A stretch of DNA of 64,000 nt from NCBI RefSeq assembly GCF_001005315.1, contig NZ_LBMG01000027.1, positions 1 to 64,000 of the forward strand, written 5' to 3'. A model generated the notes under the pieces. It was not told the origin of the DNA. It worked only from the letters and a program-made list of their open reading frames with translations, and made no database searches. Origin of the DNA: Kordia jejudonensis. Lineage in GTDB: Bacteria > Bacteroidota > Bacteroidia > Flavobacteriales > Flavobacteriaceae. A program made the translations under genes and the position numbers. Below are positions 1 to 27,873 of the stretch, piece after piece; position 1 is the first letter of the stretch; every line of letters starts with the position of its first letter.

Positions 1-2
1 AG

Positions 3-800
3 CAATTGTTTTTAAAAGTCAATAATATCAATGCAAAGAAAAATGGCGCAGGATTTAAGCATCGTAAGAATAACAAATTTTTACCGTTAAAAGGATTTGT
101 TATATGCACTTGCGGAAAGCCATTAACTGGCTATACAGAAAAAATTTATAAGATTAATTATTATAGGTGTAATACAAAAGGTTGTAGCGGACACAATAGA
201 GCTGATAAGTTAAATGAAAAATTTAAAGAATTACTAAGTAGCTTTCAAATTCGTAAAAAATTTATTGCCCCTTTAAAATTGCAAATGAAATATATATATG
301 AATATCATAACGAATCAAATAAGGATATTTTAAACGCCTTAAAGTATAATTTGAATACCATTTCTGAAAAATTAGAAAAAGTAGAGGAACGTTTTGTATA
401 TGGCGAAATAAATATGGAACTTTACAATAAGCATAGTGAAAAATTAAAGTTAGAAAAAGAAGCAATATTGAAAGAAATTGAAAATAGTACCATAAAAAAA
501 TCGAAGTTTGATTTTTATATTAAAAACACAATAAATTTAGCTTCTAACTTATTGAAAAATTGGGAGTTATCAGGTTATTGTGATAAGCAGGCATTACAAA
601 AACTGCTATTCCCTAAAGGAATAATGTATGACAAAGAAAATAATAGTTATCGAAGTTTTGAAGTCAACCCAATATTTGCATTAATAAATACATTATCAAT
701 AAGTTACAATAACGTGGGAGACAACAAAAACTTTGATAATTCAGAAAAGTTTTCTGTGGTAAGCCTTGGAAAAAATTTAGAAAAATTCATGTGGTTTTAG
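3..800 (+). CDS. Large serine recombinase, C-terminal part (cut by window edge)
   Basis: The reading frame is open to the left edge, so the N-terminal catalytic resolvase domain lies outside the window; the TTG at 6 is not a real start. What remains is the typical tail of a large serine recombinase: a zinc-ribbon (CTCGKPLTGY, then YRCNTKGCSGHN, roughly residues 34-64) followed by a charged, Lys/Glu-rich coiled-coil region. Such proteins catalyse site-specific DNA integration or excision in the cytoplasm and usually mark a mobile element. The last ~13 codons (SLGKNLEKFMWF) and the stop codon lie inside an interspersed repeat that also occurs at 5704, so the natural C-terminus has been replaced or extended by repeat insertion. 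The very AT-rich codon use fits acquired DNA. Whether the complete enzyme is active cannot be judged from here. Confidence 0.8.
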   Translation, partial: QLFLKVNNINAKKNGAGFKHRKNNKFLPLKGFVICTCGKPLTGYTEKIYKINYYRCNTKGCSGHNRADKLNEKFKELLSSFQIRKKFIAPLKLQMKYIYEYHNESNKDILNALKYNLNTISEKLEKVEERFVYGEINMELYNKHSEKLKLEKEAILKEIENSTIKKSKFDFYIKNTINLASNLLKNWELSGYCDKQALQKLLFPKGIMYDKENNSYRSFEVNPIFALINTLSISYNNVGDNKNFDNSEKFSVVSLGKNLEKFMWF

Positions 801-1039
801 TTTTTCTCAAAAAGAAAAACTAAAAATACCTCTGGAAATGCTTAGCATTCATGAATACCTTAATTTAAAATATGAATGACATGAACTAAAAGTTCCCTTT
901 CTTTTGTTGATGCCTGTGCTGAACTTGATTCAGTATTCTTTGGGAAAGCAAAGAAAATGAAAATTAGACGTAAGAAATGTGAGAATTAGCAGAGAGTTTC
1001 CAAATATAAATTGAATTACTAATATCGAACTGACGTTAA
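761..1039 (+). repeat. Interspersed repeat, copy A (5'-truncated)
   Basis: This is closely similar to segments at 5704-6022, 14860-15048 and 22340-22568. It contains the near-perfect hairpin TTTTAGTTTTTCT/AGAAAAACTAAAA at about 794-825 and the words ACCTCTGGAAATGCTTAGC and GAACTTGATTCAGTATTCTTT. It ends with ATCGAACTGACGTTAA. The left part present in copies B and D is missing, and the repeat begins within the 3' end of the recombinase reading frame. No coding capacity was seen. Confidence 0.85.
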
Positions 1040-1413
1040 ATAGATTATTTATTTAGTTATTATAAAATCAAAGTTTCAATACATCGTGCATTGGTACTTA
1101 CACATACGCATACTGCTATTGAAAAATAGTAGCATACTTTGAAACCTCGATTGTAAAGCCTGTGAAAGCAGGCTTTTTTTGTTATTAAATGCTGTTAAAC
1201 TACAGCTTAATCAATATACTTTTTACATTTTTTAAATCACTTGATGCGTTGAAAAGCAATATTTTTCACCTGTTTTGGTTAGTCTTACCACTTTTGAAAT
1301 GGTAATGATTTTGAATATAGTTAGGTTTGCGATAAATGTTAATAACTCACGGACTATTCTAGTTGTACGAATGGTTTTTACGTTTGATAATATTGTAATT
1401 TTACGCCGAATTT
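1040..1413. other. Non-coding stretch between repeat A and the structured RNA
   Basis: No plausible gene was found. It holds a strong terminator at 1156-1180 and, before it, complementary arms GTTTCAA (1073-1079) and TTGAAAC (1139-1145) around a small CTATT-GAAA-AATAG hairpin (1116-1129). Together these could be a short RNA ending at the terminator. TAATTTTA at 1396-1403 resembles a Bacteroidota -7 box and would start transcription near 1410, just before the structured RNA. Confidence 0.5.
1156..1180 (+). terminator. Rho-independent terminator
   Basis: AAGCCTG (1156-1162) pairs perfectly with CAGGCTT (1169-1175) and is followed by a run of T. It is more than 350 bases after the recombinase stop codon, so it may end a separate short transcript. 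Confidence 0.8.
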
Positions 1414-1481
1414 GCGTTCAGGATAGCAGCGGCATCCTCCCAACTTGATTGGGAGATATAGCGGATAGCCTGACAAAACGC
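1414..1481 (+). ncRNA. Structured RNA upstream of the aldolase gene (possibly Flavo-1-like)
   Basis: A compact nested fold can be read directly. GCGTT (1414-1418) pairs with AACGC (1477-1481), CAGG (1419-1422) with CCTG (1469-1472), and TCCCAA (1438-1443) with TTGGGA (1449-1454) across a five-base loop. The unpaired segments carry GGATAGC twice (1421-1427 and 1463-1469). From memory, this GGATAGC / ATAGCGGATAGCC pattern recurs in Flavobacteriia and may be the Flavo-1 RNA motif, but I cannot confirm the family. There is no T-tract right after it, so it is more likely a 5' leader of the following gene than a separately terminated RNA. Confidence 0.6.
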
Positions 1482-1523
1482 CCAAAAAAGAAAACACAAC
1501 TTTTATATAATAACTTAGAGAAC

Positions 1524-2177
1524 ATGAAATTTTTTATCGACACGGCTAATTTAGATCAAATTCGAGAAGCACAAGCTTTAGGAATTTTGGATGGTGTAAC
1601 GACAAATCCGTCGCTAATGGCGAAAGAAGGAATTACAGGAAAAGAAAACATCATAAACCACTACAAAGCAATTTGTGAAATTGTTGAAGGTGATGTTTCT
1701 GCTGAGGTAATTGCTACAGATTTTGAAGGAATGGTGAAAGAAGGAGAAGAGTTAGCAGCTTTGGATCCACAAATTGTGGTAAAGTTACCAATGATTGCAG
1801 ACGGCGTGAAAGCATGTAAATATTTTTCGGATAAAGGAATTAAAACGAATGTAACACTTGTTTTTTCTGCTGGACAAGCATTATTGGCAGCAAAAGCTGG
1901 TGCAACGTATGTTTCGCCGTTTATCGGACGTTTGGATGATATTTCTACAGACGGTTTGAACCTGATTGCTGAAATTAGAATGATTTATGACAACTACGGT
2001 TTTGAAACGGAAATTTTAGCAGCTTCTGTACGTCACACCATGCACGTAATTGATTGTGCTAAGATTGGTGCAGATGTAATGACAGGTCCATTATCATCAA
2101 TTGTTGGCTTGCTTAAACATCCATTAACGGACATTGGATTGGAAAAATTCTTAGCAGATTATAAGAAAGGGAACTAG
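1524..2177 (+). CDS. fsa: Transaldolase / fructose-6-phosphate aldolase family protein
   Basis: This is a small class I aldolase (217 aa, the usual length of the short transaldolase/FSA family). It transfers a dihydroxyacetone unit between sugar phosphates in the cytoplasm (pentose phosphate pathway), or cleaves fructose 6-phosphate. The family start [13 protein letters not shown], the TTNPS motif (residues 26-30) and the Schiff-base lysine K87 in VVKLPM are all present, as is the GADVMTGP segment near the C-terminus. An upstream TTG at 1449 extends the frame, but that lies inside the RNA fold at 1414-1481. The ATG at 1524 matches the family N-terminus and is preferred. In Flavobacteriia such short enzymes usually serve as transaldolase; which activity dominates is not visible from sequence. 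Confidence 0.95.
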
Positions 2178-2197
2178 TATCCTGAAATTATAAATGT

Positions 2198-2229
2198 AAA
2201 ATGCTGAATTTTAAATTAGAAAGCATTTT
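2198..2229 (+). terminator. Probable terminator of the aldolase gene
   Basis: AAAATGCT (2198-2205) pairs with AGCATTTT (2222-2229), 20 bases after the stop codon. The loop is AT-rich. Confidence 0.55.
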
Positions 2230-2246
2230 ATGCTACAAATGAAAAG

Positions 2247-2380
2247 AGGCTGTCTGAAAAGCTAAATTTTCGTCAAGCCGAAATTGATTCGGTTTCTCAT
2301 CATCATTGAAAATCAGTGTAATGAGATGCTGAATTGAATTCAGAATGACGATTTTTTATACTTTCTAGACAGCCTTTTTA
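2247..2380 (+). terminator. Long hairpin with T-tail, possibly an intergenic repeat
   Basis: AGGCTGTCT (2247-2255) is perfectly complementary to AGACAGCCT (2367-2375), which is followed by a T run. About 110 bases separate the arms and include GAATTCAGAATGACG, a phrase that resembles the degenerate palindromic repeats at 9417 and 24030. It may act as a second terminator or be a decayed repeat unit. Confidence 0.5.
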
Positions 2381-2405
2381 TATAGTGTGTTTTTTTGGAT
2401 TTCTT

Positions 2406-3821
2406 TTACTGCAACTGATCTCTCAAATCTGTATTATACACATTAGAAAACGCGTCAATAATACGTCCGCTTTGATCTGTGATAATTAATTTGTTGATAC
2501 TAATCAGCGCAAAATCTCTGGAAAGACTTTCATCATCAGCCACACGATATTGCTTGCTTACAGGAAATTCTAATTCTCTTAACGCACGTTTCCAACGTTT
2601 GTGATCCGTGTCCAAACTAATACCTATAATATTTAAATTTGGAAATTCTTTTGCTAACACTTTAATTTTACGTGTAACCAATTTTTTGTGTCCTGGTTGT
2701 CTTGACGTCCAAAAGTAAAAAATAGTTTTTCCTCTTTTAGAATTTAATGTGTTTACAGCTACTTTGTTGTATTTAGAATCTTGCACATATACTTTATCAG
2801 AAAAGAAACTTCCTTTTTGCAACTCTTTGATTCCTTGGTGTAAGTTTGCAATTTCTTTTTTAGATTCAGAATTGTGTGATATGACTTGAAACATTTTGAA
2901 AAACTCATTGTTTTTGTCAATATCCGTATGATTGTTTCTAAAGTATGAATATGCCGTATAACGTAACAATTGATCACGAACATTTGGCAGTTCAATTAAG
3001 CTGTCAATCAACTTTAATTTATTTTTATTGTAGGTAAGCGACGTATTTATTTTAGAATTTTTCTTCAATGATTTTTGAATACATTCACTATACGATTTGT
3101 TGTTGATGTATTGCATTGCATATCGAATGTACGGCACATAATAATTCAAAGTAGAATCATTCAAGTTTACATTTTCTCTGTAATTGAAAAATTCTTTGGG
3201 AATTGAAATGGAATCATTGATGCGTTCATGAAACGTATTTTCGTAAGTTTCTTTACAACGGTACTTTGTATACGTAATAACGTTATTGACAAAATTTTTA
3301 TACGCTTCAGAAAGTGTAGGATTTTGTGTGAAGAATTCAATATTGCGCAATTGTCGTTGTGTATACACGGAATCAATACGTGCTTCAAAAGCTTCAGGAT
3401 CTAATTTGCAATCTTTATACAACGAGTTGTCTCTGTATTGTTGTTGTGTCAAATACAAATCAGTGTAGAAATTATTTTTTTCGGCACCTTTCCCAGAATA
3501 AAATAAAGACTCATCAAAAGCCAAAGTATTGAGTCGTAATAATAAACTATCGCCTTTTTCTAAATTGATATATTGATGTTCTGGATTATGGTAAAATTTG
3601 TATAAACCATTTTTATGATTCTTCAGTTTCACTAAAAAACGGTTGTTCTCATCGAGTTTTAAAGAATCGATAAGTTTATCTTTATGATACAAAAGCACAT
3701 ATTCGTCACTAGGATTAATGATTTCTCCACCAAAGTAAGCAACATTTTCATCACTCACTTTATTGGTTTTATTACATCCAAAGCAAATAAGAATAAGCAA
3801 TAAAGGGGTAATATATTTCAT
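2406..3821 (-). CDS. Thioredoxin-fold lipoprotein lacking the active-site cysteines
   Basis: A 471-aa envelope lipoprotein. The start at 3821 is chosen because it gives a lipoprotein signal (MKYITPLLLILICFGC, cysteine 16); the frame extends 18 codons further upstream without such a signal. The middle is charged and helical, with no family I recognise. Residues ~355-471 form a TlpA/AhpC-like domain: FYFW, then a GISLD strand, then LIITDQSGRIID. In active members the motif reads W-C-P-P-C, but here the aligned residues are R-Q-P-G-H (374-378), so both cysteines are gone and no disulfide chemistry is expected. The protein may act as a binding or scaffolding relative of TlpA proteins. It is divergent from the ABC-F gene and stands alone. 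Confidence 0.8.
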   Translation of the reverse strand: MKYITPLLLILICFGCNKTNKVSDENVAYFGGEIINPSDEYVLLYHKDKLIDSLKLDENNRFLVKLKNHKNGLYKFYHNPEHQYINLEKGDSLLLRLNTLAFDESLFYSGKGAEKNNFYTDLYLTQQQYRDNSLYKDCKLDPEAFEARIDSVYTQRQLRNIEFFTQNPTLSEAYKNFVNNVITYTKYRCKETYENTFHERINDSISIPKEFFNYRENVNLNDSTLNYYVPYIRYAMQYINNKSYSECIQKSLKKNSKINTSLTYNKNKLKLIDSLIELPNVRDQLLRYTAYSYFRNNHTDIDKNNEFFKMFQVISHNSESKKEIANLHQGIKELQKGSFFSDKVYVQDSKYNKVAVNTLNSKRGKTIFYFWTSRQPGHKKLVTRKIKVLAKEFPNLNIIGISLDTDHKRWKRALRELEFPVSKQYRVADDESLSRDFALISINKLIITDQSGRIIDAFSNVYNTDLRDQLQ

Positions 3822-3949
3822 AGTAATATGGTCAACTTTTCCAAGTTTTAACAAAACTAACCAACACAGATACAATATGCTGTTAACAGGCTGTTAAAAA
3901 TCTATGTTAAAACGTTAAGACAAACTGTGCTAATATTCAATGTAATTGT

Positions 3950-3957
3950 TACTTTTG
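3950..3957 (+). promoter_or_regulatory. Putative -7 box of the ABC-F gene
   Basis: TACTTTTG fits the Bacteroidota -7 consensus TAnnTTTG and lies 33 bases before the ATG at 3991. No clear -33 TTG was found at the usual spacing. Confidence 0.45.
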
Positions 3958-3990
3958 CGCAATATAAAAAAGTTTAAAAAATAATAAAGA

Positions 3991-5622
3991 ATGTTATCTG
4001 TATCTAACTTATCCGTACAATTTGGGAAACGCGTCTTATTTGATGAAGTAAATACCTCATTTAATCAAGGGAATTGTTATGGTGTTATTGGAGCCAATGG
4101 CGCTGGTAAATCTACGTTTCTAAAAATTTTATCAGGAAAGATGGATCCTACCTCAGGACATGTACATCTTGAACCTGGAAAACGAATGTCCGTTTTAGAA
4201 CAAGATCACTTTGCATATGATGATTATCCTGTATTAGAAACCGTAATCATGGGAAATAAACCATTGTTTGCCATCAAAAAAGAAATGGACGATATCTATG
4301 CAAAAGAAGATTTCTCTGATAAAGATGGAGAACGCGTAGGAGAGTTGCAAGTAGAATTTGAAGAAATGAATGGTTGGAATGCCGATTCGGATGCAGCAGC
4401 TTTATTATCAAACTTAGGAATTTCAGAAGCTTATCATTATTCGTTAATGAGCGAATTAGACGGAAAACAAAAAGTACGTGTATTACTAGCACAAGCACTT
4501 TTTGGAAATCCTGATGTATTAATCATGGATGAGCCAACAAACGACTTGGATTTTGAAACCATTTCTTGGTTGGAAAACTTCTTGGCAAATTATGATAACT
4601 GTGTTATTGTAGTTTCACACGATAGACACTTTTTAGATGCGGTTTGTACACACATATCTGATATCGATTTCTCAAAAATAAACCACTACAGTGGAAACTA
4701 TACGTTTTGGTACGAAAGTAGTCAGTTAGCAGCTAGACAACGTGCACAACAAAACAAAAAAGCGGAAGACAAAGCAAAAGAATTGCAAGAATTTATCATG
4801 CGTTTCAGTGCCAATGTTGCCAAATCAAAACAAGCAACATCGCGTAAAAAAATGTTAGAACGCTTAAAAGTAGAAGACATCAAACCTTCAAGCCGTCGTT
4901 ATCCTGCCATTATTTTTGATAGAGAACGCGAAGCTGGAGATCAAATTTTAAATATTGAAGGTTTAGCGGCAAGCGCAGACGGAGAAATACTCTTCAAAAA
5001 CGTAGACATCAACTTGGCAAAAGGCGATAAAGTAGCGGTTATTTCTAAAAACTCGCGTGCTACAACTGCATTTTATGAAATTATCAATGATAAAATAAAA
5101 GCAGACGCAGGAACATACAAATGGGGAGTGACCACTTCACAAGCGTATTTACCTGTAGACAATTCTGAATATTTTGACAACGATCTTACGTTGGTTGATT
5201 GGTTACGTCAATGGGCAACAACCGAAGAAGAAAGAGAAGAAGTATATGTACGTGGATTTTTAGGTAAGATGATTTTCAGTGGAGAAGAAGCGTTAAAAAC
5301 AGCTCGTGTACTTTCAGGAGGAGAAAAAGTACGTTGCATGCTTTCGCGAATGATGATGATTAGAGCAAATGTTCTTATGCTTGATGAACCTACAAACCAC
5401 TTGGACTTAGAAAGTATTACGGCTTTTAACAACTCGTTGAAAAACTTTAAAGGAACGGTATTGTTTACAACACATGATCACGAGTTTGCACAAACGGTTG
5501 CTAATAGAATTATTGAATTGACACCATCAGGCGTTATTGATCGTTATGCAACGTTTGACGATTACATGAACGATAAGAAAATTAAAGAACAACGTGAAAA
5601 AATGTACGGCGTAGAAGTATAA
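3991..5622 (+). CDS. ABC-F family ATPase (YbiT-like)
   Basis: A 543-aa cytoplasmic protein with two ATP-binding cassettes and no membrane segments, the architecture of ABC-F ribosome-associated ATPases that act on translation or give antibiotic protection. Cassette 1 has Walker A GANGAGKS (34-41) and Walker B VLIMDE (176-181) but a divergent signature around 153-160 (MSELDGKQ), as in the YbiT branch. The charged linker (~245-300) is the expected ABC-F interdomain arm. Cassette 2 keeps LSGGE (441-445) and VLMLDE (461-466), but its Walker A is degenerate (ISKNSRATT, 351-359), lacking the glycine-rich loop. From memory this second degeneracy recurs in Bacteroidota members, so it is probably a subfamily trait. 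The gene is monocistronic, and repeat B begins at the base after its stop codon. Confidence 0.92.
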   Translation: MLSVSNLSVQFGKRVLFDEVNTSFNQGNCYGVIGANGAGKSTFLKILSGKMDPTSGHVHLEPGKRMSVLEQDHFAYDDYPVLETVIMGNKPLFAIKKEMDDIYAKEDFSDKDGERVGELQVEFEEMNGWNADSDAAALLSNLGISEAYHYSLMSELDGKQKVRVLLAQALFGNPDVLIMDEPTNDLDFETISWLENFLANYDNCVIVVSHDRHFLDAVCTHISDIDFSKINHYSGNYTFWYESSQLAARQRAQQNKKAEDKAKELQEFIMRFSANVAKSKQATSRKKMLERLKVEDIKPSSRRYPAIIFDREREAGDQILNIEGLAASADGEILFKNVDINLAKGDKVAVISKNSRATTAFYEIINDKIKADAGTYKWGVTTSQAYLPVDNSEYFDNDLTLVDWLRQWATTEEEREEVYVRGFLGKMIFSGEEALKTARVLSGGEKVRCMLSRMMMIRANVLMLDEPTNHLDLESITAFNNSLKNFKGTVLFTTHDHEFAQTVANRIIELTPSGVIDRYATFDDYMNDKKIKEQREKMYGVEV

Positions 5623-6022
5623 TTAATCTGAGTTCGACGTAAAAAATTAGTTCAAAACTTTTCTTTTCCGAAGTATAGCAGGGATTTTCCGTTAAGAATT
5701 TTTGAAGCCTTGGAAAAAATTTAGGAAAATTCATGCGGTTTTAGTTTTTTTCAGAAAGAAAAACTAAAAATACCTCTGGAAATGCTTAGCATTCATGAAT
5801 ACCTTAATTTAAAATATGAAAGACATGAACTAAAAGTTCCCTTTCTTTTGTTTCTTTTCTTTGGGAAGGCAAAGAAATCGAAGATTCACGAATTCCTATT
5901 TAAGAAAATAAAATCATATGAGCTAAAATGAAAATAAAACGCAGAAAATGTGATAATTAGTAGCTAGGTTCCAAACTTATTTATAATCATAAATTGAATA
6001 ACCTATTTCGAACTGACGTTAA
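5623..6022 (+). repeat. Interspersed repeat, copy B (full length)
   Basis: An element of about 400 bp bounded by TTAATCTGAGTTCGA on the left and, on the right, TTCGAACTGACGTTAA. The reverse complement of the right end, TTAACGTCAGTTCGA, matches the left end at 12 of 15 positions, so the element has imperfect terminal inverted repeats with TTAA at both ends. Inside are the TTTTAGTTTTT/AAAAACTAAAA hairpin and a second pairable pair, CCCTTTCTTTTG and CTTTGGGAAGGCAAAGAAA. It starts directly after the ABC-F stop codon. No gene was seen in the interval 5623-6122. Confidence 0.85.
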
Positions 6023-6043
6023 TCACGAAAATATATCATAACT

Positions 6044-6080
6044 AAAAAGTCCCTTGAAATTCATTTTCAAGGGACTTTTA
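6044..6080. terminator. Bidirectional terminator
   Basis: AAAAGTCCCTTGAAA pairs with TTTCAAGGGACTTTT around a six-base loop, with A- and T-rich flanks on both sides. It separates the plus-strand ABC-F/repeat region from the minus-strand peptide gene at 6123. Confidence 0.85.
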
Positions 6081-6122
6081 TATATAATAGATTGGTTGAT
6101 ATGGTCTTTTTAAAACGCTACT

Positions 6123-6275
6123 TTACGGAAGTCTACAGATTCCTTGGTAGCATGCATATGGAAAATCGCAAGGTCTTCGATGATTGCAAAAACGAGGCGC
6201 ACCACCAATAATGTTGCGCTGCCCTTTTTTGGCGATATACTGTAATCCTTCAAGATTTGCAAGTTTGTCTAGCAT
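6123..6275 (-). CDS. Double-glycine-leader, four-cysteine small peptide 1
   Basis: A 50-aa gene below the usual ORF length cut-off. The leader MLDKLANLEGLQYIAKKGQR is amphipathic and ends in IIGG (Gly-Gly at 24-25), the bacteriocin-type signal cut by C39-type peptidases during export. The 25-residue core carries cysteines at 30, 36, 42 and 47 (C-x5-C-x5-C-x4-C) with CYQGIC near the end. Peptide 2 has the same four cysteine positions and the same Gly-Gly position, which supports both genes as real. It has its own upstream dyad box and a terminator after it. The core could be disulfide-bonded or further modified. No peptidase/ABC exporter or modifying enzyme is within the window. The role (bacteriocin, signal or other) is unknown. 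Confidence 0.8.
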   Translation of the reverse strand: MLDKLANLEGLQYIAKKGQRNIIGGAPRFCNHRRPCDFPYACYQGICRLP

Positions 6276-6293
6276 GACTTAATTTTTGAAATT

Positions 6294-6340
6294 TAAAAGT
6301 ACAAAAAAATATTGAATAGCTGATTACGGTTTTCCCGTAA
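6294..6340 (-). promoter_or_regulatory. Promoter/operator region of peptide 1 with TTACGG dyad
   Basis: A perfect inverted repeat, TTACGG-5 nt-CCGTAA (6324-6340), sits 20 bases upstream of TACTTTTA (6294-6301, minus strand), a likely -7 box. The start codon follows 18 bases later. The block AGCTGATTACGGTTTTCCC is nearly identical to one before peptide 2. Confidence 0.65.
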
Positions 6341-6354
6341 CATTTCTTTTAAAT

Positions 6355-6383
6355 CAAAAAAGCCCTAAAATTTTTGAGGACTT
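6355..6383 (-). terminator. Terminator between the two peptide genes
   Basis: On the minus strand, AAGTCCT and AGGGCTT form a seven-pair stem (one G-U) followed by a T run, 27 bases after the peptide 2 stop codon. Peptide 1 is therefore probably transcribed from its own promoter. Confidence 0.65.
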
Positions 6384-6409
6384 GCCTTGTAGATTACATG
6401 ATATCTATT

Positions 6410-6568
6410 TTATATTCCGATTAGTACGCATCTTCCTCTATAACATTCCTCGTCTTCATTACAATCTCTGAAAGTTCTGCATTGTGGTGGAATTCCACCT
6501 TTCACAGTTTGTTGCTTTCTTTTAGACAATTTTTCTACTCCTGAGATACTTTTAATTTTGTTTAACAT
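6410..6568 (-). CDS. Double-glycine-leader, four-cysteine small peptide 2
   Basis: A 52-aa gene, parallel to peptide 1. Leader MLNKIKSISGVEKLSKRKQQ ends in VKGG with Gly-Gly at 24-25. The core IPPQCRTFRDC continues with NEDEECYRGRC and keeps cysteines at 30, 36, 42 and 47, exactly as in peptide 1. The cores otherwise differ and the charge is different: this core is acidic in the middle, whereas peptide 1 is basic. That suggests diverging paralogues under selection to keep the cysteine frame. The leader resembles the natural-product-precursor leaders common in Bacteroidota. It is expected to be secreted after cleavage behind Gly-Gly; the function is not known. Confidence 0.8.
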   Translation of the reverse strand: MLNKIKSISGVEKLSKRKQQTVKGGIPPQCRTFRDCNEDEECYRGRCVLIGI

Positions 6569-6592
6569 GATTGTAAGTTTTTAAGTTCTTAC

Positions 6593-6637
6593 TAAAGTTA
6601 AAAAATCTAATTTACAGCAGATTACGGTTTTTCCATA
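6593..6637 (-). promoter_or_regulatory. Promoter/operator region of peptide 2 with dyad box
   Basis: AGCAGATTACGGTTTTTCC (6616-6634) matches the box before peptide 1. The dyad here is imperfect (TACGG/CCATA). TAACTTTA (6593-6600, minus strand) lies 19-20 bases downstream as a putative -7 box, with the ATG a further 24 bases on. The near-equal spacing in both genes places the box at the -33 region. Confidence 0.6.
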
Positions 6638-6684
6638 CATCTAATACTTTTAAGAAAACTTTGGGAAAAGTATCTTATTAAATA

Positions 6685-6719
6685 AAAAACGCTTTCTACT
6701 ATATGTAAAAAGCGTTTTC
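6685..6719 (-). terminator. Terminator of pheT
   Basis: On the minus strand, AAAACGCTTT pairs with AAAGCGTTTT, followed by TTATTT, about 33 bases after the pheT stop codon. Confidence 0.8.
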
Positions 6720-6753
6720 TATTTTGTATAGTTTAATTGCTACATTATAAACA

Positions 6754-9183
6754 TTACCTCAATTCAGCTCCCAATTGTTTTTCGAAACTTTGCTGCAATT
6801 TGTTCATGATCTTATCAATCTGCTTATCAGTCAGCGTTTTATGCTCGTCTTGCAATGTGAAACTTACGGCATAACTTTTCTTGCCTTTTGGCAGATTTTT
6901 CCCTTCGTATACATCAAACAGATTTACTTCTTTGAGTAAATTACGTTCGCTTTGCTTGGCAATGTTGTGAATTTCGGCAAACGTAGTTTTTTCATCAATT
7001 AACAGTGCAAAATCTCTTCGTACCTTTGGAAACTTAGGAATCTCTTTAAACTTGATTTTTCTGTTTTTGGTAACTTCAATGACATTATCCCAATTGAAAT
7101 CTGCGAAAATTACTTGCTGCTTTATGTCAAACGCTTTTAATACGCTGCGTTTTACGATTCCAAATTCTACCAAATTCGTTTTTCCTAAACTCAAGATTAA
7201 ACCTTCTGAAAATAGATCGCTTTTGATAGGAGAAACTTTTAAAGAATGTAATCCTAAACGTGATAAAACACTTGTTACAATTCCTTTCGCATAAAAGAAA
7301 TCGCTGGTAACAGGTTTGCTTTGACGCCAAGTTTCAGCATTTGTATTTCCTGTAATTAGTAACGATAAATGTTTATGTTCTTCACGATTTTCACCGTAAT
7401 GATGATATGTTTTTCCGAATTCAAAGAATTTTAAATCCGATTGTTTTCTGTTGATATTGTGTGAAATAGCTTCCAATCCTGAGAATAATAACGATTGACG
7501 CATTACGGATAAATCGCCACTTAAAGGATTCAACATTGTAATATTGTGTTCTGCCTTTAATTGCTCAGAAAGTTCAGTATATGCGGCTGTTGTCAATGAG
7601 TTTGCCATGATTTCATAGAAACCTTGCGAAACTAATTGTGAACCCACAACATCTTGTAATTTATGATCTTCATAACGTGATGAATTGGCAACCGAAATAT
7701 GCCATTTTTCATCAAATTCAATATTATTGTAACCGTACACACGTAAAATTTCTTCAATGACGTCTGCTTCTCGTTGTACATCAACTCTGTATGCAGGAAT
7801 TGTTAAACCTAATCCACCATCGGTTACCGAATTGATTTTAATTTCTAATGATGATAAAATATTTTTGATCGTTTCTCTTGGCAATTCTTCTCCAATTAAT
7901 TTTGTGATATTGTCAAAAGAAACACGTACTTGGAAATCTTCAATTTTTGTCGGATAACTATCAGAAACATCACTTGTAATTTCGCCACCAGCCAATTCTT
8001 GAATTAACAAGGCAGCTCTTTTTAAAGCATATTCTGTACAGTTTGGATCAATTCCACGCTCAAAACGAAACGATGCATCTGTATTTAAACCATGACGTTT
8101 TGCAGTTTTACGCACAGAAACAGGATTAAAATAGGCACTTTCTAAGAATACATTTGTTGTTTGCTCAGTTACACCAGAATGCAAACCTCCAAAAACTCCC
8201 GCAATGCACAATGGTTTTTCAGCATCACAAATCATTAGATCGTCTTCGTGCAATTCGCGTTCTACTTCATCTAATGTTGTGAATTTTGTGCCAGTTTCAA
8301 GTGTTTTTACAATGATTTTATTTCCAGAAATATAATTTGCGTCAAAGGCATGTAACGGTTGTCCTAATTCGTGTAACACATAATTAGTGACATCAACTAC
8401 ATTATTTTTTGGGGTTAAACCGATTGCTTTTAATCGATGTTGCAACCATTCAGGTGACGATTTTACTTGAACTCCAGAAATCGTTACACCACAATAACGC
8501 GGCGCAAGTGTTTTGTCTGCTACATCTACATCAATTTTCAACGTTCGGTTGTCAACTCTAAAACTACTGGTAGAAGGCGTAATGAGTTCAAGTTTGAGAT
8601 CTTTTTGTTGCAAACCCGCTTTTAAATCTCTGGCAACTCCATAATGACTCATGGCATCTGCGCGGTTTGGTGTTAAGCCAATTTCAAAAACGGTATCATT
8701 TTCAATATCAAATACGTCGCTTGCTTTTGTTCCAGGAACTAAATCTTCGGCTAAAATCATGATTCCGTCGTGACTTTCGCCTAAACCAAGTTCGTCTTCG
8801 GCACAAATCATTCCATTAGAAACTTCGCCACGAATTTTCCCTTTTTTGATTTTAAATCCTTTGCCTTCTGCGTCGTACAATGTTGTGCCTACAGTAGCTA
8901 CAGGTACTTTTTGTCCAGCAGCAACATTTGGCGCGCCACATACAATTTGTACAGGTTCTCCCGTGCCAAGATCAACAGTAGTTACTTTTAAGCGGTCAGC
9001 ATTTGGATGTTGTACACAGGTTAAAACGTGTCCGACAACAATTCCTTCCAATCCGCCTTGTACAGATTCATATTTTTCAATGCCTTCAATCTCTAAACCT
9101 AAATCCGTTAAGAGTTCCCCTGTTTGTTCAGCGTCCCAGTCAAGTTGAATAAATTGCTTTACCCAATTATATGATATTTTCAT
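6754..9183 (-). CDS. pheT: Phenylalanine--tRNA ligase, beta subunit
   Basis: An 809-aa cytoplasmic protein, full length for bacterial PheT. It has the N-terminal OB-fold tRNA-binding domain (about 40-150, including VQIVCGAPNV and GMICAEDELGLGE), the B3/B4 editing region (about 215-390), the B5 domain, the catalytic-like core, and a C-terminal anticodon-binding FDX-ACB domain (from FPKVRRDFALLID to the end). With PheS it forms the alpha2beta2 synthetase that charges tRNA-Phe. pheS is not adjacent; the neighbours are small peptide genes and a response regulator, so the subunits are encoded apart here. The start at 9183 gives the family N-terminus MKISYNWVKQFI. Confidence 0.97.
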   Translation of the reverse strand: MKISYNWVKQFIQLDWDAEQTGELLTDLGLEIEGIEKYESVQGGLEGIVVGHVLTCVQHPNADRLKVTTVDLGTGEPVQIVCGAPNVAAGQKVPVATVGTTLYDAEGKGFKIKKGKIRGEVSNGMICAEDELGLGESHDGIMILAEDLVPGTKASDVFDIENDTVFEIGLTPNRADAMSHYGVARDLKAGLQQKDLKLELITPSTSSFRVDNRTLKIDVDVADKTLAPRYCGVTISGVQVKSSPEWLQHRLKAIGLTPKNNVVDVTNYVLHELGQPLHAFDANYISGNKIIVKTLETGTKFTTLDEVERELHEDDLMICDAEKPLCIAGVFGGLHSGVTEQTTNVFLESAYFNPVSVRKTAKRHGLNTDASFRFERGIDPNCTEYALKRAALLIQELAGGEITSDVSDSYPTKIEDFQVRVSFDNITKLIGEELPRETIKNILSSLEIKINSVTDGGLGLTIPAYRVDVQREADVIEEILRVYGYNNIEFDEKWHISVANSSRYEDHKLQDVVGSQLVSQGFYEIMANSLTTAAYTELSEQLKAEHNITMLNPLSGDLSVMRQSLLFSGLEAISHNINRKQSDLKFFEFGKTYHHYGENREEHKHLSLLITGNTNAETWRQSKPVTSDFFYAKGIVTSVLSRLGLHSLKVSPIKSDLFSEGLILSLGKTNLVEFGIVKRSVLKAFDIKQQVIFADFNWDNVIEVTKNRKIKFKEIPKFPKVRRDFALLIDEKTTFAEIHNIAKQSERNLLKEVNLFDVYEGKNLPKGKKSYAVSFTLQDEHKTLTDKQIDKIMNKLQQSFEKQLGAELR

Positions 9184-9571
9184 TCTTAGTAGTATTCGAT
9201 AATCGACAAAGATAAGATAATGCGGTAAGTTGACAAATAACTTTGAGTCTGATTTTAGATACTGTTAATGTCTTTTTATCGCTATGCTTTAAGAATGAAG
9301 AAGACTTCGCTTACATATAATAGAATCAAGATCGCTTCACTTCTAGAAAATAGAATAAAGATGATTTTTTTCTACTGTAAAATTCTAACAATTTAACTGC
9401 GTAGCGATTTCTGCTTTCGCCGGAATGACAAGAAGATACTATGAAAGAAAGTTCAAAAATCTAATGATAAGGCTAATTCAAGAACAAAAGAAGTCTAAAA
9501 ATCCAATAGAAGCGGTCCTATATCTAACAGCGACAGCGATCTAAGAGATTCCCGCCAGAACGGGAACGAGT
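9184..9571. other. Non-coding gap with decayed palindromic repeat fragments
   Basis: No gene was found in these 388 bases. TTCCCG-6 nt-CGGGAA at 9549-9566 is a short palindrome just after the LytTR stop codon, and the words TTTCGCCGGAATGACAAG at 9417 resemble the palindrome at 24030. The rest is low-complexity text with recurring TCTAA and AGCGA words. The pheT promoter must lie near the right end of pheT, at about 9190-9250. Confidence 0.5.
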
Positions 9572-10297
9572 CTAAAGAATAAGTTCCTTAATTTTATTCG
9601 CATAACTACGACTTACTTTTACTTTCTCATTATTCTTTAAAATCAAAATATAACTTTTTCCATATTTTGAAACTTCTTTGATCGAAGGTAAATTCACAAT
9701 TATACTACGATGAATGCGCATAAATTGTTTCGGATTGAGTTTTTCTTCCAGTTGTGAAATTCCTCGGTTACTCAAGTAATTTTCTGTAGTATCATAAATT
9801 TTAGAATAACTTCCGTAAGCTTCTATATAATAAATATCCTCAGTGGCAAGCGTCACATATTTTGTGCCTTTTTCTACAATAATACGATCAGGAAATGTAG
9901 GTTTGGAAAGAATATGATCGTCTGCTAATGGTGCTATTTGACTCGGCGAATTGTCTTTTAACTTGCTTATTGCTTTGTCAAAACGTTCTTTTGTATACGG
10001 TTTTAGTAAATAATCAACCGCATGCACTTCAAAGGCTTTTAGCGCGTATTTATCATAAGCGGTACTAAAAATTATGGTGGGTAATTCGTTTAAATGTTCC
10101 AACACGTCAAAACCTGTCAATCCAGGCATTTGAATGTCCATAAATACCAAATCGGGTTTAAACTTGTTAATAATTTTGATAGCATCTACGCCATTATTTG
10201 CTTCTCCGATCAAAATTAACTCGCTATGATATTCTAAATATTCTTTGATGAGCGTTCTTCCAGATTTTTCATCATCAACAATGATAACCTTTTTCAT
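9572..10297 (-). CDS. LytTR-family response regulator
   Basis: A 241-aa cytoplasmic transcription regulator. The receiver domain (1-120) has the acidic pair D8/D9, phospho-acceptor D54 in VFMDIQMPG, and K99 in LLKPY. A linker leads to a LytTR DNA-binding domain (about 135-240) with the FMRIHRSIIVN motif. It lies downstream of the LytS-like kinase gene (10386-11447), 88 bases away on the same strand, so the kinase is its evident partner. Targets are not shown by the sequence; the divergently placed barrel gene at 12286 is a natural candidate. Confidence 0.93.
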   Translation of the reverse strand: MKKVIIVDDEKSGRTLIKEYLEYHSELILIGEANNGVDAIKIINKFKPDLVFMDIQMPGLTGFDVLEHLNELPTIIFSTAYDKYALKAFEVHAVDYLLKPYTKERFDKAISKLKDNSPSQIAPLADDHILSKPTFPDRIIVEKGTKYVTLATEDIYYIEAYGSYSKIYDTTENYLSNRGISQLEEKLNPKQFMRIHRSIIVNLPSIKEVSKYGKSYILILKNNEKVKVSRSYANKIKELIL

Positions 10298-10385
10298 GTG
10301 TTTGTGTGTAGTATTGCTTTTAATTTTTGGGTATTATACCAATTCAACTTCGCTTTTAAAGTCGCATTTTAGAATAGATTTGGTA

Positions 10386-11447
10386 TTACAATTCAAAATA
10401 TACTTTTAATCCTGACGGAACATTATCTGAAAATGTAAGCGTCGAATTGTACATTTTTTGCAAACGTTTCTGCGTGTTACTGATGCCAACACCAAGATTG
10501 AAAAGCTGTTCTTTATTTTGTACGCCAACGCCAGTATCGTTGATTTCAAAGATCAATTTTCCTGCTAATTCTCTGACCATGATTTCAATTTCTCCACCTT
10601 GTACCAACGGCGAAATGCCATGTTTTACAGAATTTTCTACCAACGGTTGTAAAATCATTGGCGGAATTTTTCGCGAAAGCAATTCATCAGGAACATGCAT
10701 TTGTATTTTTAGTCGATCTTCAAATCTTCGTTGTTCTAGTTTCAAATATTTATTGACAAAATCGAGTTCTTCTGCAAGCGTTACATAATCTTCTCGACTC
10801 GCTTTTAATTGATAACGGAACAAATCGGACAATTCGGCAATCATTTCACGCGTATCTTCCATTTCACTTGGAACACTTGCATTGATCGTATTAAATACAT
10901 TGTATAGAAAGTGTGGATTCAACTGCGCTTTTATGGCACTCAATTCACTTTTCAATGCAGCATTTTTAAGTTCAACTTCATAGCGCATTTTGTATTGATT
11001 GATCACATAATATTCATAGGCATGCAATAAGGAAAATTGTATCAAATAAATTAAGGTAGGAATGTAAATATCCCACACTTGTCCCGTGCCGCCCATGTGC
11101 CAATATCCGTAAGTTTCACAGATGTAATAAAATAACTTCCAAGAACATAGAATGAAAAATGGCAATCCGAAAAGGTGTAATAACAAGCGTTGCCATAATT
11201 TGTATTTTCTGAATACTTTAAAAATAAAAAACCATACAATAGAAGTCGCAAGAAACATGATAATGTATTGCAATCCTTCATTGTCAAACCAGCTTTCAGG
11301 ACTGAACAAATCGGAACTTTTTCTATACTCCAGCGGTCTATTAAACCATAATGTAACATGATACACTATAGAGAGTAGAAAATACGTCCCCATAAGTGCA
11401 AATATTTCAAAAATTTTAATACCAAAAATACGCTTGTTCTTCATCAT
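10386..11447 (-). CDS. LytS-like sensor histidine kinase
   Basis: A 353-aa inner-membrane kinase. Four hydrophobic segments (about 12-32, 58-78, 88-108, 126-148) are followed by a short coiled coil and the His_kinase domain, with H179 in QLNPHFLYN. The HATPase region has VENSVKHG and NDTGVG motifs. There is no large extracellular sensor, so the stimulus is probably sensed within or close to the membrane. Its start codon directly follows the stop codon of the secreted-protein gene upstream (TAAATG), indicating one transcript with the LytTR regulator. Confidence 0.92.
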   Translation of the reverse strand: MMKNKRIFGIKIFEIFALMGTYFLLSIVYHVTLWFNRPLEYRKSSDLFSPESWFDNEGLQYIIMFLATSIVWFFIFKVFRKYKLWQRLLLHLFGLPFFILCSWKLFYYICETYGYWHMGGTGQVWDIYIPTLIYLIQFSLLHAYEYYVINQYKMRYEVELKNAALKSELSAIKAQLNPHFLYNVFNTINASVPSEMEDTREMIAELSDLFRYQLKASREDYVTLAEELDFVNKYLKLEQRRFEDRLKIQMHVPDELLSRKIPPMILQPLVENSVKHGISPLVQGGEIEIMVRELAGKLIFEINDTGVGVQNKEQLFNLGVGISNTQKRLQKMYNSTLTFSDNVPSGLKVYFEL

Positions 11448-12104
11448 TTATTTTTTTTCAAATACATACCACATTTCTTTTGTCATTGCACGGAACGTCA
11501 CTTTGAGCAAACCGTTGGCAGTTTTTATGGTATAATTTCCTTTAGCTCCAGCAATTGATAACAAACGTCCTTCTTCATAGGCAAGCGCTTGTCCATCACG
11601 ATAGTAAAAAATAACACCGTTAGAAAACTCTAAACTAGCATCATATCCTGTTTTTTCATTATAGCTAAAATACCTTTCTTTTGTCAAATACACCGAATTA
11701 CTTTGATAACTAGTCGATTTTTTATCTGTACGCTTCTTATAATTCCCATCAGAAGGACGATTAAAATGATCTTCAGAGCCTTTTGCACTATAATCTCGGT
11801 CTGTTTTTCCTAGTATCAATTTTCCACTTGTTAAATCGTATGCATCAGGCGTATCGTTCCAAGAAACAAACACATATAACGTAATTGGTTGTACAATTTC
11901 ATATACTTTTAATTTTTCTAAACTATCAGCATTCAGTACGGTATTGCCTTCTGCATCTTGCACTAAAAAGTTGGTGCCTGGCGGATAGCTAATTGTTTTT
12001 TGGTCGTTCAATTCTATTTTTAAATAGCTTTGCGTACCTATTTCGGCGTTACACATAACTACGGCAAAAAGTAATGCCATCGAGGATAAAAATAATTTTT
12101 TCAT
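11448..12104 (-). CDS. Secreted protein of unknown function in a two-component operon
   Basis: A 218-aa protein with a clear signal peptide (MKKLFLSSMALLFAVVMCNA, cut before Glu). I do not recognise a family. The mature part is beta-rich with many aromatic residues and a lysine-rich segment near 130-145 (RTDKKSTSYQ). It is the first gene of a three-gene unit with the kinase (next start codon adjoins its stop) and LytTR regulator. It may be a periplasmic sensor accessory or a product under their control. Divergent transcription from the barrel gene leaves 181 bases of shared upstream DNA. Confidence 0.75.
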   Translation of the reverse strand: MKKLFLSSMALLFAVVMCNAEIGTQSYLKIELNDQKTISYPPGTNFLVQDAEGNTVLNADSLEKLKVYEIVQPITLYVFVSWNDTPDAYDLTSGKLILGKTDRDYSAKGSEDHFNRPSDGNYKKRTDKKSTSYQSNSVYLTKERYFSYNEKTGYDASLEFSNGVIFYYRDGQALAYEEGRLLSIAGAKGNYTIKTANGLLKVTFRAMTKEMWYVFEKK

Positions 12105-12285
12105 ACTGCTTTATTTTTTTGTTTGCTCAAAACTACGAGGAATCACGCTGGTATAAAACGAACTTTTCATGAGTCGCCTTATATACTGATGAATGGTCCT
12201 TGGACAACTCATATACGATTTGGGTCAACTCATAACTTTTGCATTGCAGCACGCTGTTTTACCATACATATTTGTGGAAAATTAA

Positions 12286-14706
12286 ATGATTATGCACTTA
12301 AAAACTACTTTTCTAACACTTGTATTAGCCTTGTTTTTCTCTCTTATTGTAAAAAGTCAAACGCAAGAAACAAGCATACTTACAGGGAAAATTGTTTCAG
12401 AAAACAACGAAGTATTGCCGTTTGTAAATGTACTTGTACGCACGCCAGACACTATATTGGTAAAAGCAACGATTTCAAATGAAAAAGGAATCTTTACCAT
12501 TAAAGATATTGTTCCCAATACATACACACTAACTATTTCTTTTGTTGGATATAATTCGCTTTCGCGAGAAATTACAATTCGTAAGGGAAAAAACGATCTT
12601 GGAACTATTCCACTAAAAGTAGCGACCGAATCTTTAGAAGCTGTTACAGTCGTTGCTGAAAAACCAATCATTCAGGTTGAACCAGATAAAACAGTTTTTA
12701 ATGTAGCAAATACAGTTGGAAGCGCAGGGAACAACGGATTGGAAATTCTAAGAAAAGCGCCAGGTGTACGTTTGGATAATGATAATAATATTATTGTTGA
12801 AGGAAAAACAGGTGTGTTAATCTATATTGATGATCGTCAGAGTTTCTTAGCAGGAGACGATTTGACAGCTTTTTTACAATCGCTACAAGCGGATACTATT
12901 GAAAGTATCGAAATCATTACGCAACCTTCTGCGCGATATGATGCGGCAGGAAATGCGGGAATCATTAACATTAAACTCAAAAGAGAAAAAGGCTTGGGAA
13001 CGCGCGGAAGCATTTCTAGTACATTAACGATTGGCGATTTTGCACGAACGAACAATTCGGTATCTATAAATAGTCGATTCAAAAAATGGAATTTCTTTGG
13101 AAGCTATTCTAACTTTTTAGGGCGTTCTACAGGGTTTATCGATTTATATAGAACACAAGGCGATAACATATTTGATGCACAAACCGATTCCGAATACGAT
13201 GCATTTTCAAATAATTTTAGAACAGGAGCCGATTATTACCTCACTAAAGAAAGTATTTTAGGTGCAGTTGTTAGTGTAAATTTGCGCGATTCGGAATCAC
13301 GTTCAAACAGTGTAACGCCTATAATTGATAGAAATACACGCGTGACGGACAGTATTTTACGTGCGCCAAACAGTTCGGAAAACAACAGTGTCAATTTGAA
13401 TGCAAACATAAATTATCGTTACAAAGATACGCTTGGTACAAGTTTTAGTGCCGATTTGGATTATGGACGTTACAGTCGTGATCGTTTTAACAATCAGCCT
13501 AACTTTTACACAACGCCGACAGGAGACATTTTAAATGCGAACATCACGTATCAAGAAACACCAATTGATATTAATATTTATGCTGCCAGAGTAGATTACG
13601 GTCAAAAATTAGGAAAAGGAACCTTTGAAACAGGCGCAAAAGTATCAAAAGTAGTTACAGATAATATATTTAACTTTTTTAATGTTGTCAACGGAATCAA
13701 TACCTTCAATACAGATCGAAGCAACGCGTTTGAATATGATGAAGAAATTTATGCTGTATATGCCAAATACAATTTTGCATTGGGCAAGTGGAAATTTCAA
13801 GGCGGTTTGCGCATAGAACGTACCAATTCAGAAGGAACATTAACGGCGGAAAATACAAATCAAAATCAAGTGGTTTCTCGCACGTATACAGATTACTTTC
13901 CATCCGCAGGAATATCGTTTCAAGCCAATCAAATCAATTCTTTTGCATTAAGTTACAGTCGTAGAATTCAACGTCCGAACTATCAATCGTTAAATCCATT
14001 TGAATTTCAATTGGACGAACTTAGTTTCAGTCGTGGAAATCCGTTCTTGCAACCACAATACACCAACAATTTTAAACTTTCGCATACCTATAAATACACA
14101 TTAACTACCAGTTTGAGTTATTCGTACATCGCTGACTTTTTTGCACGTGTAACGGAAGCAGAAGGCGAAAATAGAAACTTCTTAAACACGCGAAATGTAG
14201 CCGATCAGGAAGTGTACAATTTAAGTATTTCATATCCTTTCAAAGTCAACAGTTGGTGGCGCGCGTATGCCAATGTGTACGGTTCGTATAGTAAATACAC
14301 AGCTACGAATCCTGCGTTCATTTCCATAGATCAAGAAACTTTTGGATTTTACGCACAAAACACATTTTCGTTGCCAAAAGACATAAAATTAGAAGTCAGC
14401 GGTTGGTATAGCAGTCCATCTATTTGGGGCGGAACTTATGAAACTAGAAGTTTAGGTTCGTTAAACATTGCAGTGCAAAAATCGTGGAAAAACTGGACAG
14501 GGAAAATCACACTAAACGATGCTTTATACACAATTCCGTGGCAAGGAATGACCCAATTTGGAGATTTACGAATTGATGGTCGTGGCGGAAGTGACAGTCG
14601 AAATATCAACTTTTACGTACGGTATTCATTTGGAAATAATGACGTAAAAAAAGCGAAACAACGTGATGGAAGTCTAGAAGATGAAAAGGGGAGAATTGGT
14701 GGGTAA
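12286..14706 (+). CDS. Outer-membrane beta-barrel protein with carboxypeptidase-regulatory-like domain
   Basis: An 806-aa outer-membrane protein. A signal peptide (ends near KSQ) is followed by a carboxypeptidase-regulatory-like domain (about 30-110: LTGKIVSENNEVLPFVNV, FVGYNSLS). Next come a plug-like region (about 118-235) and a long barrel of the outer-membrane beta-barrel family 3 type. No N-terminal TonB box was recognised, so TonB dependence is uncertain. The second in-frame ATG, at 12292, is an equally good start (MHLKTTFL). The gene faces the secreted protein/kinase/LytTR unit and may be regulated by it. The C-terminal tail is charged (about 20 residues) rather than ending on a barrel aromatic. 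Repeat C starts 10 bases after its stop codon. Confidence 0.88.
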   Translation: MIMHLKTTFLTLVLALFFSLIVKSQTQETSILTGKIVSENNEVLPFVNVLVRTPDTILVKATISNEKGIFTIKDIVPNTYTLTISFVGYNSLSREITIRKGKNDLGTIPLKVATESLEAVTVVAEKPIIQVEPDKTVFNVANTVGSAGNNGLEILRKAPGVRLDNDNNIIVEGKTGVLIYIDDRQSFLAGDDLTAFLQSLQADTIESIEIITQPSARYDAAGNAGIINIKLKREKGLGTRGSISSTLTIGDFARTNNSVSINSRFKKWNFFGSYSNFLGRSTGFIDLYRTQGDNIFDAQTDSEYDAFSNNFRTGADYYLTKESILGAVVSVNLRDSESRSNSVTPIIDRNTRVTDSILRAPNSSENNSVNLNANINYRYKDTLGTSFSADLDYGRYSRDRFNNQPNFYTTPTGDILNANITYQETPIDINIYAARVDYGQKLGKGTFETGAKVSKVVTDNIFNFFNVVNGINTFNTDRSNAFEYDEEIYAVYAKYNFALGKWKFQGGLRIERTNSEGTLTAENTNQNQVVSRTYTDYFPSAGISFQANQINSFALSYSRRIQRPNYQSLNPFEFQLDELSFSRGNPFLQPQYTNNFKLSHTYKYTLTTSLSYSYIADFFARVTEAEGENRNFLNTRNVADQEVYNLSISYPFKVNSWWRAYANVYGSYSKYTATNPAFISIDQETFGFYAQNTFSLPKDIKLEVSGWYSSPSIWGGTYETRSLGSLNIAVQKSWKNWTGKITLNDALYTIPWQGMTQFGDLRIDGRGGSDSRNINFYVRYSFGNNDVKKAKQRDGSLEDEKGRIGG

Positions 14707-26713: not shown

Positions 26714-26759
26714 AAGGCGTCATCCGAAAAGCCATTTTTAAACAGAGTAGGAATTTTAA

Positions 26760-27699: not shown

Positions 27700-27873
27700 A
27701 TGTTATCAAAAATTTTAAAAATTAAAGACGTTAGAGTTTTAAGTAAGAAAGAAACAAGAAGTGTATTGGGTGGCGTATGTAAACCTTGTATAAGAATACC
27801 AGGAAGCGGACCAATGTCAGCAGATCAGATTGCAGCTTGTAAAGCTTGTCAAAAGAAGAATGAACTTTCTTAA
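27700..27873 (+). CDS. Double-glycine-leader small peptide 3 with twin CxxC
   Basis: A 57-aa gene too short for routine calling. The leader MLSKILKIKDVRVLSKKETR ends in VLGG with Gly-Gly at 24-25, the same position as in peptides 1 and 2 at 6123 and 6410. The core differs: VCKPC (C27, C30), a Gly/Pro-rich middle, then ACKAC (C47, C50), giving CxxC-x16-CxxC. The paired CxxC could bind a metal or form disulfides. A terminator follows at 27902. The upstream dyad box of peptides 1 and 2 is not present here, so regulation differs. No exporter or modification gene is nearby. Confidence 0.8.
   Translation: MLSKILKIKDVRVLSKKETRSVLGGVCKPCIRIPGSGPMSADQIAACKACQKKNELS

Follow-up and report, generated by a model that had tools for sequence, protein, structure and literature searches.

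Two adjacent genes in the 64,000-nucleotide stretch of Kordia jejudonensis DNA analyzed here (the window, from an assembly of 5.36 Mb in 217 contigs) encode short peptides with a double-glycine leader and an identical four-cysteine frame. The first is conserved across Kordia under purifying selection, and both are preceded by a palindrome, TACGG-N5-CCGTA, which is enriched in this genome just upstream of leader-peptide genes. On balance, the two genes are likely to encode precursors of secreted peptides which would be exported by a C39-type transporter, closed by two disulfide bonds and controlled through the palindrome together with other Gly-Gly-leader genes. The genes, the cysteine frame, the orthology, the purifying selection on peptide 1, the enrichment and spacing of the palindrome and the association between leader and C39 transporters across genomes have been established by computation. 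Neither the size of the peptide-gene set nor the common palindrome had been foreseen in the first-pass annotation of this DNA.

That annotation had described adjacent minus-strand genes of 50 and 52 codons, both of which are present in the list of open reading frames (Table 1), and its account of the translations proved exact: Gly-Gly stands at residues 24-25 of each peptide, the cysteines at residues 30, 36, 42 and 47 (C-x5-C-x5-C-x4-C), and the shared ending CYxG-(I/R)-C reads CYQGIC in peptide 1 and CYRGRC in peptide 2. Behind leaders of 25 residues, the cores measure 25 (peptide 1) and 27 residues (peptide 2). One core is basic and the other acidic (pI 8.9 versus 4.9), and they have little sequence in common, with 9 of 25 positions identical, of which four are the cysteines; the leaders are identical at 8 of 25 positions. 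The cysteine positions of peptide 1 arose in 9 of 200,000 shuffles of the peptide 2 core, the exact chance being 1/C(27,4) = 5.7e-5. Searches of Pfam and NCBIfam returned nothing over cut-off for either peptide. The neighboring genes, to judge from their sequences, presumably encode an ABC-F ATPase and PheT. A candidate promoter element lies before peptide 1, the Bacteroidetes -7 consensus being TAnnTTTG. At the third window gene with this kind of leader, the best fit to the palindrome has 5 mismatches. Rfam matches in the window comprise a Flavo-1 RNA (1412-1479) and a DUF805b RNA (26714-26753), the latter about 1 kb before this third gene.

Table 1. Position of the peptide genes, their parts and their neighbors in the window.
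Feature	Position	Strand	Basis
Peptide 1 precursor gene, 50 aa	6123..6275	-	ORF list; orthologues
Peptide 1 leader, residues 1-25, Gly-Gly at end	6201..6275	-	ORF translation, 25-row alignment
Peptide 1 core APRFCNHRRPCDFPYACYQGICRLP, four Cys, no Ser/Thr	6126..6200	-	
Peptide 2 precursor gene, 52 aa	6410..6568	-	ORF list
Peptide 2 leader, residues 1-25, Gly-Gly at end	6494..6568	-	
Peptide 2 core IPPQCRTFRDCNEDEECYRGRCVLIGI	6413..6493	-	
Palindrome TACGGGAAAACCGTA, putative operator, end 49 nt upstream of peptide 1 start codon	6325..6339	-	
Palindrome TATGGAAAAACCGTA, one mismatch, end 54 nt upstream of peptide 2 start codon	6623..6637	-	
Candidate -7 promoter element TACTTTTA	6294..6301	-	judged from sequence
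Third gene with same leader kind, 57 aa, without four-Cys frame	27700..27873	+	
ABC-F ATPase gene (presumed), neighbor	3991-5622	+	name judged from sequence
pheT (presumed), neighbor	6754-9183	-	name judged from sequence

A relative of peptide 1 adjoins pheT and/or the ABC-F gene in all 11 Kordia genomes and is flanked by both in 8 of them; within the available stretch, only pheT was seen in G206 and only the ABC-F gene in G202 and G203. When named genomes were scanned with peptide 1, eight of the nine loci obtained were Kordia records, and relatives were found in K. algicida OT-1, K. zhangzhouensis, K. periserrulae and K. aestuariivivens; the ninth locus, a 19-residue match in a Marinicaulis bin, was taken for a chance hit. 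Among ten ungapped orthologues of 50 residues (45 pairs, Nei-Gojobori method; the set is without the K. aestuariivivens copy, from the eleventh genome, and the second G201 copy), dN/dS is 0.073 for the core, against 0.152 for the leader, values which are far below 1, as expected of the selected family proposed earlier, and which are only rough because the core is almost saturated at its synonymous sites (dS 2.3). Purifying selection thus acts on peptide 1, and with a core dN/dS of 0.07 it is the core which is kept, not the spacing alone. The earlier view that the spacing is selected while the surface varies therefore holds between paralogues but fails within the peptide 1 orthologues, whose core sequence is itself conserved.

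The same values weigh on a reading close to that of the first-pass annotation, in which the genes form a bacteriocin pair of the classical kind, narrow in spectrum and subject to diversifying selection. The Gly-Gly leader, the size, the cysteines and the strong divergence of the paralogous cores would all suit such a pair, as would the weak matches of some relatives to NCBIfam putative-bacteriocin models (below cut-offs where shown). It is nonetheless unlikely, given the low core dN/dS, the lack of a recognizable adjacent immunity gene in the ORF list and the fact that, among the loci retrieved, a second four-cysteine gene occurs at the pheT/ABC-F place only in this genome (G000) and in G201. 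The K. aestuariivivens copy has lost Cys1 and Cys3, retains Cys2 and Cys4 and carries a new cysteine in its leader; this loss, a single event, may represent decay. It could be cited, along with the absence of biosynthetic genes next door in the ORF list and of a close orthologue of peptide 2 among the loci retrieved, for the idea that both genes are decaying remnants of what was once a biosynthetic cluster, which the purifying selection on peptide 1 and the place it has kept in the genus render highly improbable.

For peptide 2, a profile search of the 11 Kordia genomes yielded no near copy among the matches listed (best 30 loci). The 62-nt stretch upstream of its gene scores 28 and 24 against the second genes of G201 and K. 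aestuariivivens, and at most 16 against the peptide 1 genes compared; this similarity is suggestive of peptide 2 corresponding, as a diverged copy, to the second gene found in these two genomes.

Both peptides belong to a larger set. With a five-row profile, leaders of this first kind were located at 24 places in the genome at E<=0.01 (the 25th at 0.0101), and the profile matches 26 of 199 genomes of the family. Chosen members, aligned in 25 rows, are invariant at M1, L2, K16, Q19, G24 and G25 and likewise at C30, C36 and C42, and nearly so at C47. Five of the own-genome members align with C-x5-C-x5-C-x4/5-C, namely the window pair and three paralogues which have either the exact frame (one) or a last gap longer by one residue (two); other members may carry variants of the frame. 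Three more orthologous sets in other Kordia keep a four-cysteine frame, so that homologues with a conserved frame, which the first-pass annotation had expected, exist both in this genome and in related ones. The same leader is also borne by many cores without the frame. Weak matches of related Kordia and Flavobacteriaceae peptides were obtained with two NCBIfam models, NF047792 (CCPGW putative bacteriocin), to which 6 of 25 members matched at a best E of 6.9e-5, and NF047798 (leader_Chryseo), the best of the bit scores shown being 19.5 against a cut-off of 80 for NF047792 and 20.4 against 23.5. Peptides 1 and 2 had no match to NF047792 at E<=10 and were likewise unmatched by NF047798. A second leader, of the class I lanthipeptide kind, gave at least 149 matches at E<=0.01 in this genome, a number obtained from 150 scored of 307 first-look candidates, so that the total may be higher, although some of the matches may not be genes. 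Of three second-kind peptides tried, one matched the class I lanthipeptide model of NCBIfam, below its cut-off. A phage or plasmid origin was also considered, and no match was found for peptide 1 in a phage collection or for the L008 paralogue in a plasmid collection.

Regarding the modification of the cores, a lanthionine is ruled out in peptide 1, whose core has no Ser or Thr (that of peptide 2 has one Thr), and disulfides are therefore the likely modification. Of the bacteriocin- or RiPP-type secreted family proposed earlier, the Gly-Gly-leader family with its cysteine frame is thus retained, but a lanthionine-type RiPP is excluded for peptide 1. Two disulfide bonds probably hold the peptides closed. 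They would place the mass of a core 4.03 Da below that of its reduced form, the monoisotopic values for the window cores being 2978.35 and 3180.44 Da. The 25-row profile recovered the 24-residue DPY module of Drosophila Dumpy (1oig), which has the same C-x5-C-x5-C-x4-C frame as the window peptides, with a marginal E of 0.0019, followed by scytovirin and squash inhibitors, which were not significant; of the 25 members, 8 matched the Pfam model Dumpy_DPY, at a best E of 9.3e-4. In the AlphaFold model, the core has two short strands and is fairly confident, with a pLDDT of about 80 for residues 31-50, the leader being not confident. Foldseek returned no significant match to the predicted core (seven rows, best E 2.3), its rows including the scorpion peptides LaIT1 (E 2.3) and U1-Liotoxin-Lw1a (E 4.3), neither significant. 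The likeness to DPY modules and hairpins does not show common ancestry, short cysteine-rich matches being prone to convergence. In the disulfide-directed hairpin fold of U1-LITX-Lw1a and KASH2, cysteines pair 1-3 and 2-4, as described in a passage of PMC11891777. We infer that Cys1-Cys3 and Cys2-Cys4 are most likely the pairs in the Kordia core as well; the loss of Cys1 and Cys3 with retention of Cys2 and Cys4 in K. aestuariivivens is what would be expected of such pairing.

The first-pass annotation had noted that no dedicated exporter is adjacent, and had suggested that a C39 ABC transporter encoded elsewhere may serve. No exporter was indeed seen in the ORF list of window positions 1-14000, and a whole-genome search for C39 peptidases did locate such a transporter, as a single strong match (1.3e-38) on a different contig; two further matches were weak. 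The strong match is a 735-residue ORF with ABC domains, followed by an HlyD-type protein, and its surroundings also hold the two LanB parts and a LanC-like gene, LanB being single in the genome. What characterizes Gly-Gly-leader substrates of C39 transporters, a short leader ending in Gly-Gly and a C39-peptidase ABC transporter in the genome, is therefore found here. Of the 199 genomes of the family, 26 have the leader profile, and 24 of these have a C39 match at E<=1e-15, versus 36 of the 173 without the profile (Fisher p = 1.3e-12, uncorrected for phylogeny); two leader-profile genomes have no strong match. Apart from the present genome, 25 are positive for the profile, and in 16 of them a peptide gene is no more than 5 kb away from a C39 gene; in Kordia, the peptide genes are scattered over the chromosome. 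These data also bear on the idea that the genes encode small intracellular four-cysteine metal-binding proteins with an incidental Gly-Gly. Four conserved cysteines could indeed hold zinc, but the leader is both associated with and adjacent to C39 transporters and occurs with many cores devoid of the cysteine frame, which makes this idea very unlikely. The two weak matches are C39-like/VKOR/thioredoxin fusions, on G000 contigs C24 (L014:7296-9234) and C101 (L013:8075-9919), each adjoining a small gene for a peptide with a GG or AG leader; such a fusion could possibly be a combined leader-binding and disulfide-forming enzyme. A TPR protein which includes an AraC-type HTH, at L012:13993-15705 in the LanB/C39 region, is a candidate regulator, although perfect palindromes are seldom bound by regulators of this type.

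The palindrome is exact upstream of peptide 1 and has one mismatch upstream of peptide 2. There are 26 exact copies in this genome versus 2 of the reversed control pattern, and 14-41 copies in each of ten other Kordia genomes versus 0-3. Among the 199 family genomes, both Kordia members of the sample rank highest (26 and 23) and the next count is 16, with a control of 14; most non-Kordia genomes are near their control, and a few are also in excess (10 versus 1, 9 versus 0). Sixteen of the 26 exact sites sit 49-62 nt upstream of a gene with a GG-type leader (ending in GG in 13, and in GA, AG and GQ in one each), two of these site-gene pairs resting on an internal ATG as start. Two further sites lie 57 nt upstream of secreted proteins of about 500 residues, and eight precede neither leader peptides nor such proteins. 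The palindromes before the two secreted proteins are at C112:28958 and 32714 (L130) in this genome, and the one protein checked carries S74 chaperone and T9SS sorting domains. Counted from the gene side, for genes found with the leader profiles, the palindrome is present at 49-59 nt, with no more than 2 mismatches, in 11 of 24 first-kind genes (all 24 counted) and absent in 13, and is present at 46-59 nt, with one mismatch, in 6 of the best 30 of the 149 second-kind genes and absent in 24; 300 shuffles gave zero palindromes at one mismatch or fewer. In other Kordia, 13 of 17 distinct exact sites examined (216 counted) precede a leader gene, two precede a protein starting like the S74 ones and two precede nothing.

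The enrichment of the palindrome and its placement just upstream of leader-peptide genes suggest that the scattered secreted-peptide genes form one regulon. Its membership is not fixed, since the site is absent from four of ten peptide 1 orthologues (G179, G202, G203 and G204; exact in five, two mismatches in G205) and from all seven four-cysteine peptides of the CPPNW/CPLNW/CPPGW type compared. At 24 peptide genes of other genera the palindrome was absent. Several Gly-Gly-leader genes of other Flavobacteriaceae (L052, L054, L055, L060, L061 and L062) share an element near GACACAAACTGTGAGT, about 47-56 nt upstream of the start codon. A search for the regulator tied none to the palindrome, and the C39/LanB region had no usable site; the one site there, with one mismatch, is inside a gene. 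No account of a shared operator or motif for Kordia peptide genes was found in the literature searched, mostly outside subscription papers.

The palindrome is likewise relevant to whether peptide 1 is a pheromone, namely a conserved signal of Kordia density, with peptide 2 as a private variant. Such a role would agree with a core conserved genus-wide at a fixed place, with the absence of a recognizable immunity-like gene on reading the ORF list and with the TPR/AraC-type protein of the C39/LanB region. It appears rather unlikely, as no receptor was seen linked to the gene and as the palindrome is common to many unrelated peptide genes, which would be unusual for a single signal.

According to the mechanism which we favor, a probably dimeric regulator would bind TACGG-N5-CCGTA centred near -42 and switch on the window pair along with scattered genes for other GG-type-leader peptides of both kinds, the products then leaving the cell at once, as a mixture. 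A C39-peptidase ABC transporter encoded away from the pair, presumably the only strong C39 protein of the genome, in the LanB/LanC cluster region, would recognize the leader of 25 residues, which has K16, Q19 and Gly-Gly, and would cleave it behind Gly-Gly. The core of 25-27 residues would be oxidized outside the cytoplasm into a two-disulfide mini-hairpin, and LanB/LanC may act only on the leader kind whose peptides bear Ser/Thr. Cleavage, disulfides and their pairing, the regulator and the activity are what we infer in this scheme. As to use outside the cell, the likeliest is that the peptides act against other bacteria by way of a conserved target, with about an even chance of being correct, and signaling is a less likely, minority possibility; a bacteriocin role is plausible.

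Among known systems, bacteroidetocins (class IIf bacteriocins) are described in the part of PMC6671954 available as having a 15-16 residue leader, a 42-48 residue core and a region encoding an exporter, a membrane protein and, in most cases, a thiol oxidoreductase. As far as this part goes, they share with the window peptides a Bacteroidetes origin, the Gly-Gly leader, four cysteines (in their types A and B), probable disulfides and an ABC exporter with a double-glycine peptidase domain. The window peptides differ in the lengths of both leader (25 residues) and core (25-27), in having no linked exporter by the C39 search and in their common palindrome; neither a membrane protein nor a thiol oxidoreductase was noted near the pair on reading the ORF list of positions 1-14000. 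Class I lanthipeptide precursors of Bacteroidetes, in the section of PMC7268733 seen, combine an LxLxKx5L leader with Gly-Gly, and so resemble the window peptides in a Gly-Gly leader used with a C39 peptidase; the Kordia palindrome also stands upstream of many precursors resembling this kind. The window peptides, in contrast, have another leader sequence and do not offer the Ser/Thr which, with Cys, would make thioether rings (one Thr in peptide 2, none in peptide 1), the peptide 1 core being unable to form lanthionine. Kordia has been singled out as rich in biosynthetic clusters and in RiPPs including lanthipeptides, in passages of PMC10734526 and PMC11118758 which are themselves silent on scattered precursors, a common palindrome and the four-cysteine kind.

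Peptide genes of this sort are usually sought next to exporters or modifying enzymes. The window pair stands by itself. Both its genes and many other peptide genes are marked by a 15-bp palindrome within a narrow range of distances upstream of the start codon, which offers a way to find them and a handle on their induction. Prochlorosins provide a parallel, with one LanM serving many scattered precursors; Kordia likewise has many (at least 149 second-kind matches) and one LanB, but differs in its two leader kinds, its common palindrome and members unable to form thioethers. More tentatively, a genus-wide regulon may exist in which one dimeric factor, acting through TACGG-N5-CCGTA at a fixed distance, fires a scattered library of Gly-Gly-leader peptides of both the thioether and the disulfide-hairpin type, all leaving by one C39 exporter, the four-cysteine kind including a genus-core peptide in the form of a free-standing DPY/DDH-like mini-domain. 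In the genus of the algicidal K. algicida, whose strain OT-1 has an orthologue of peptide 1, a conserved peptide of probable disulfide type is thereby open to direct synthesis and assay.
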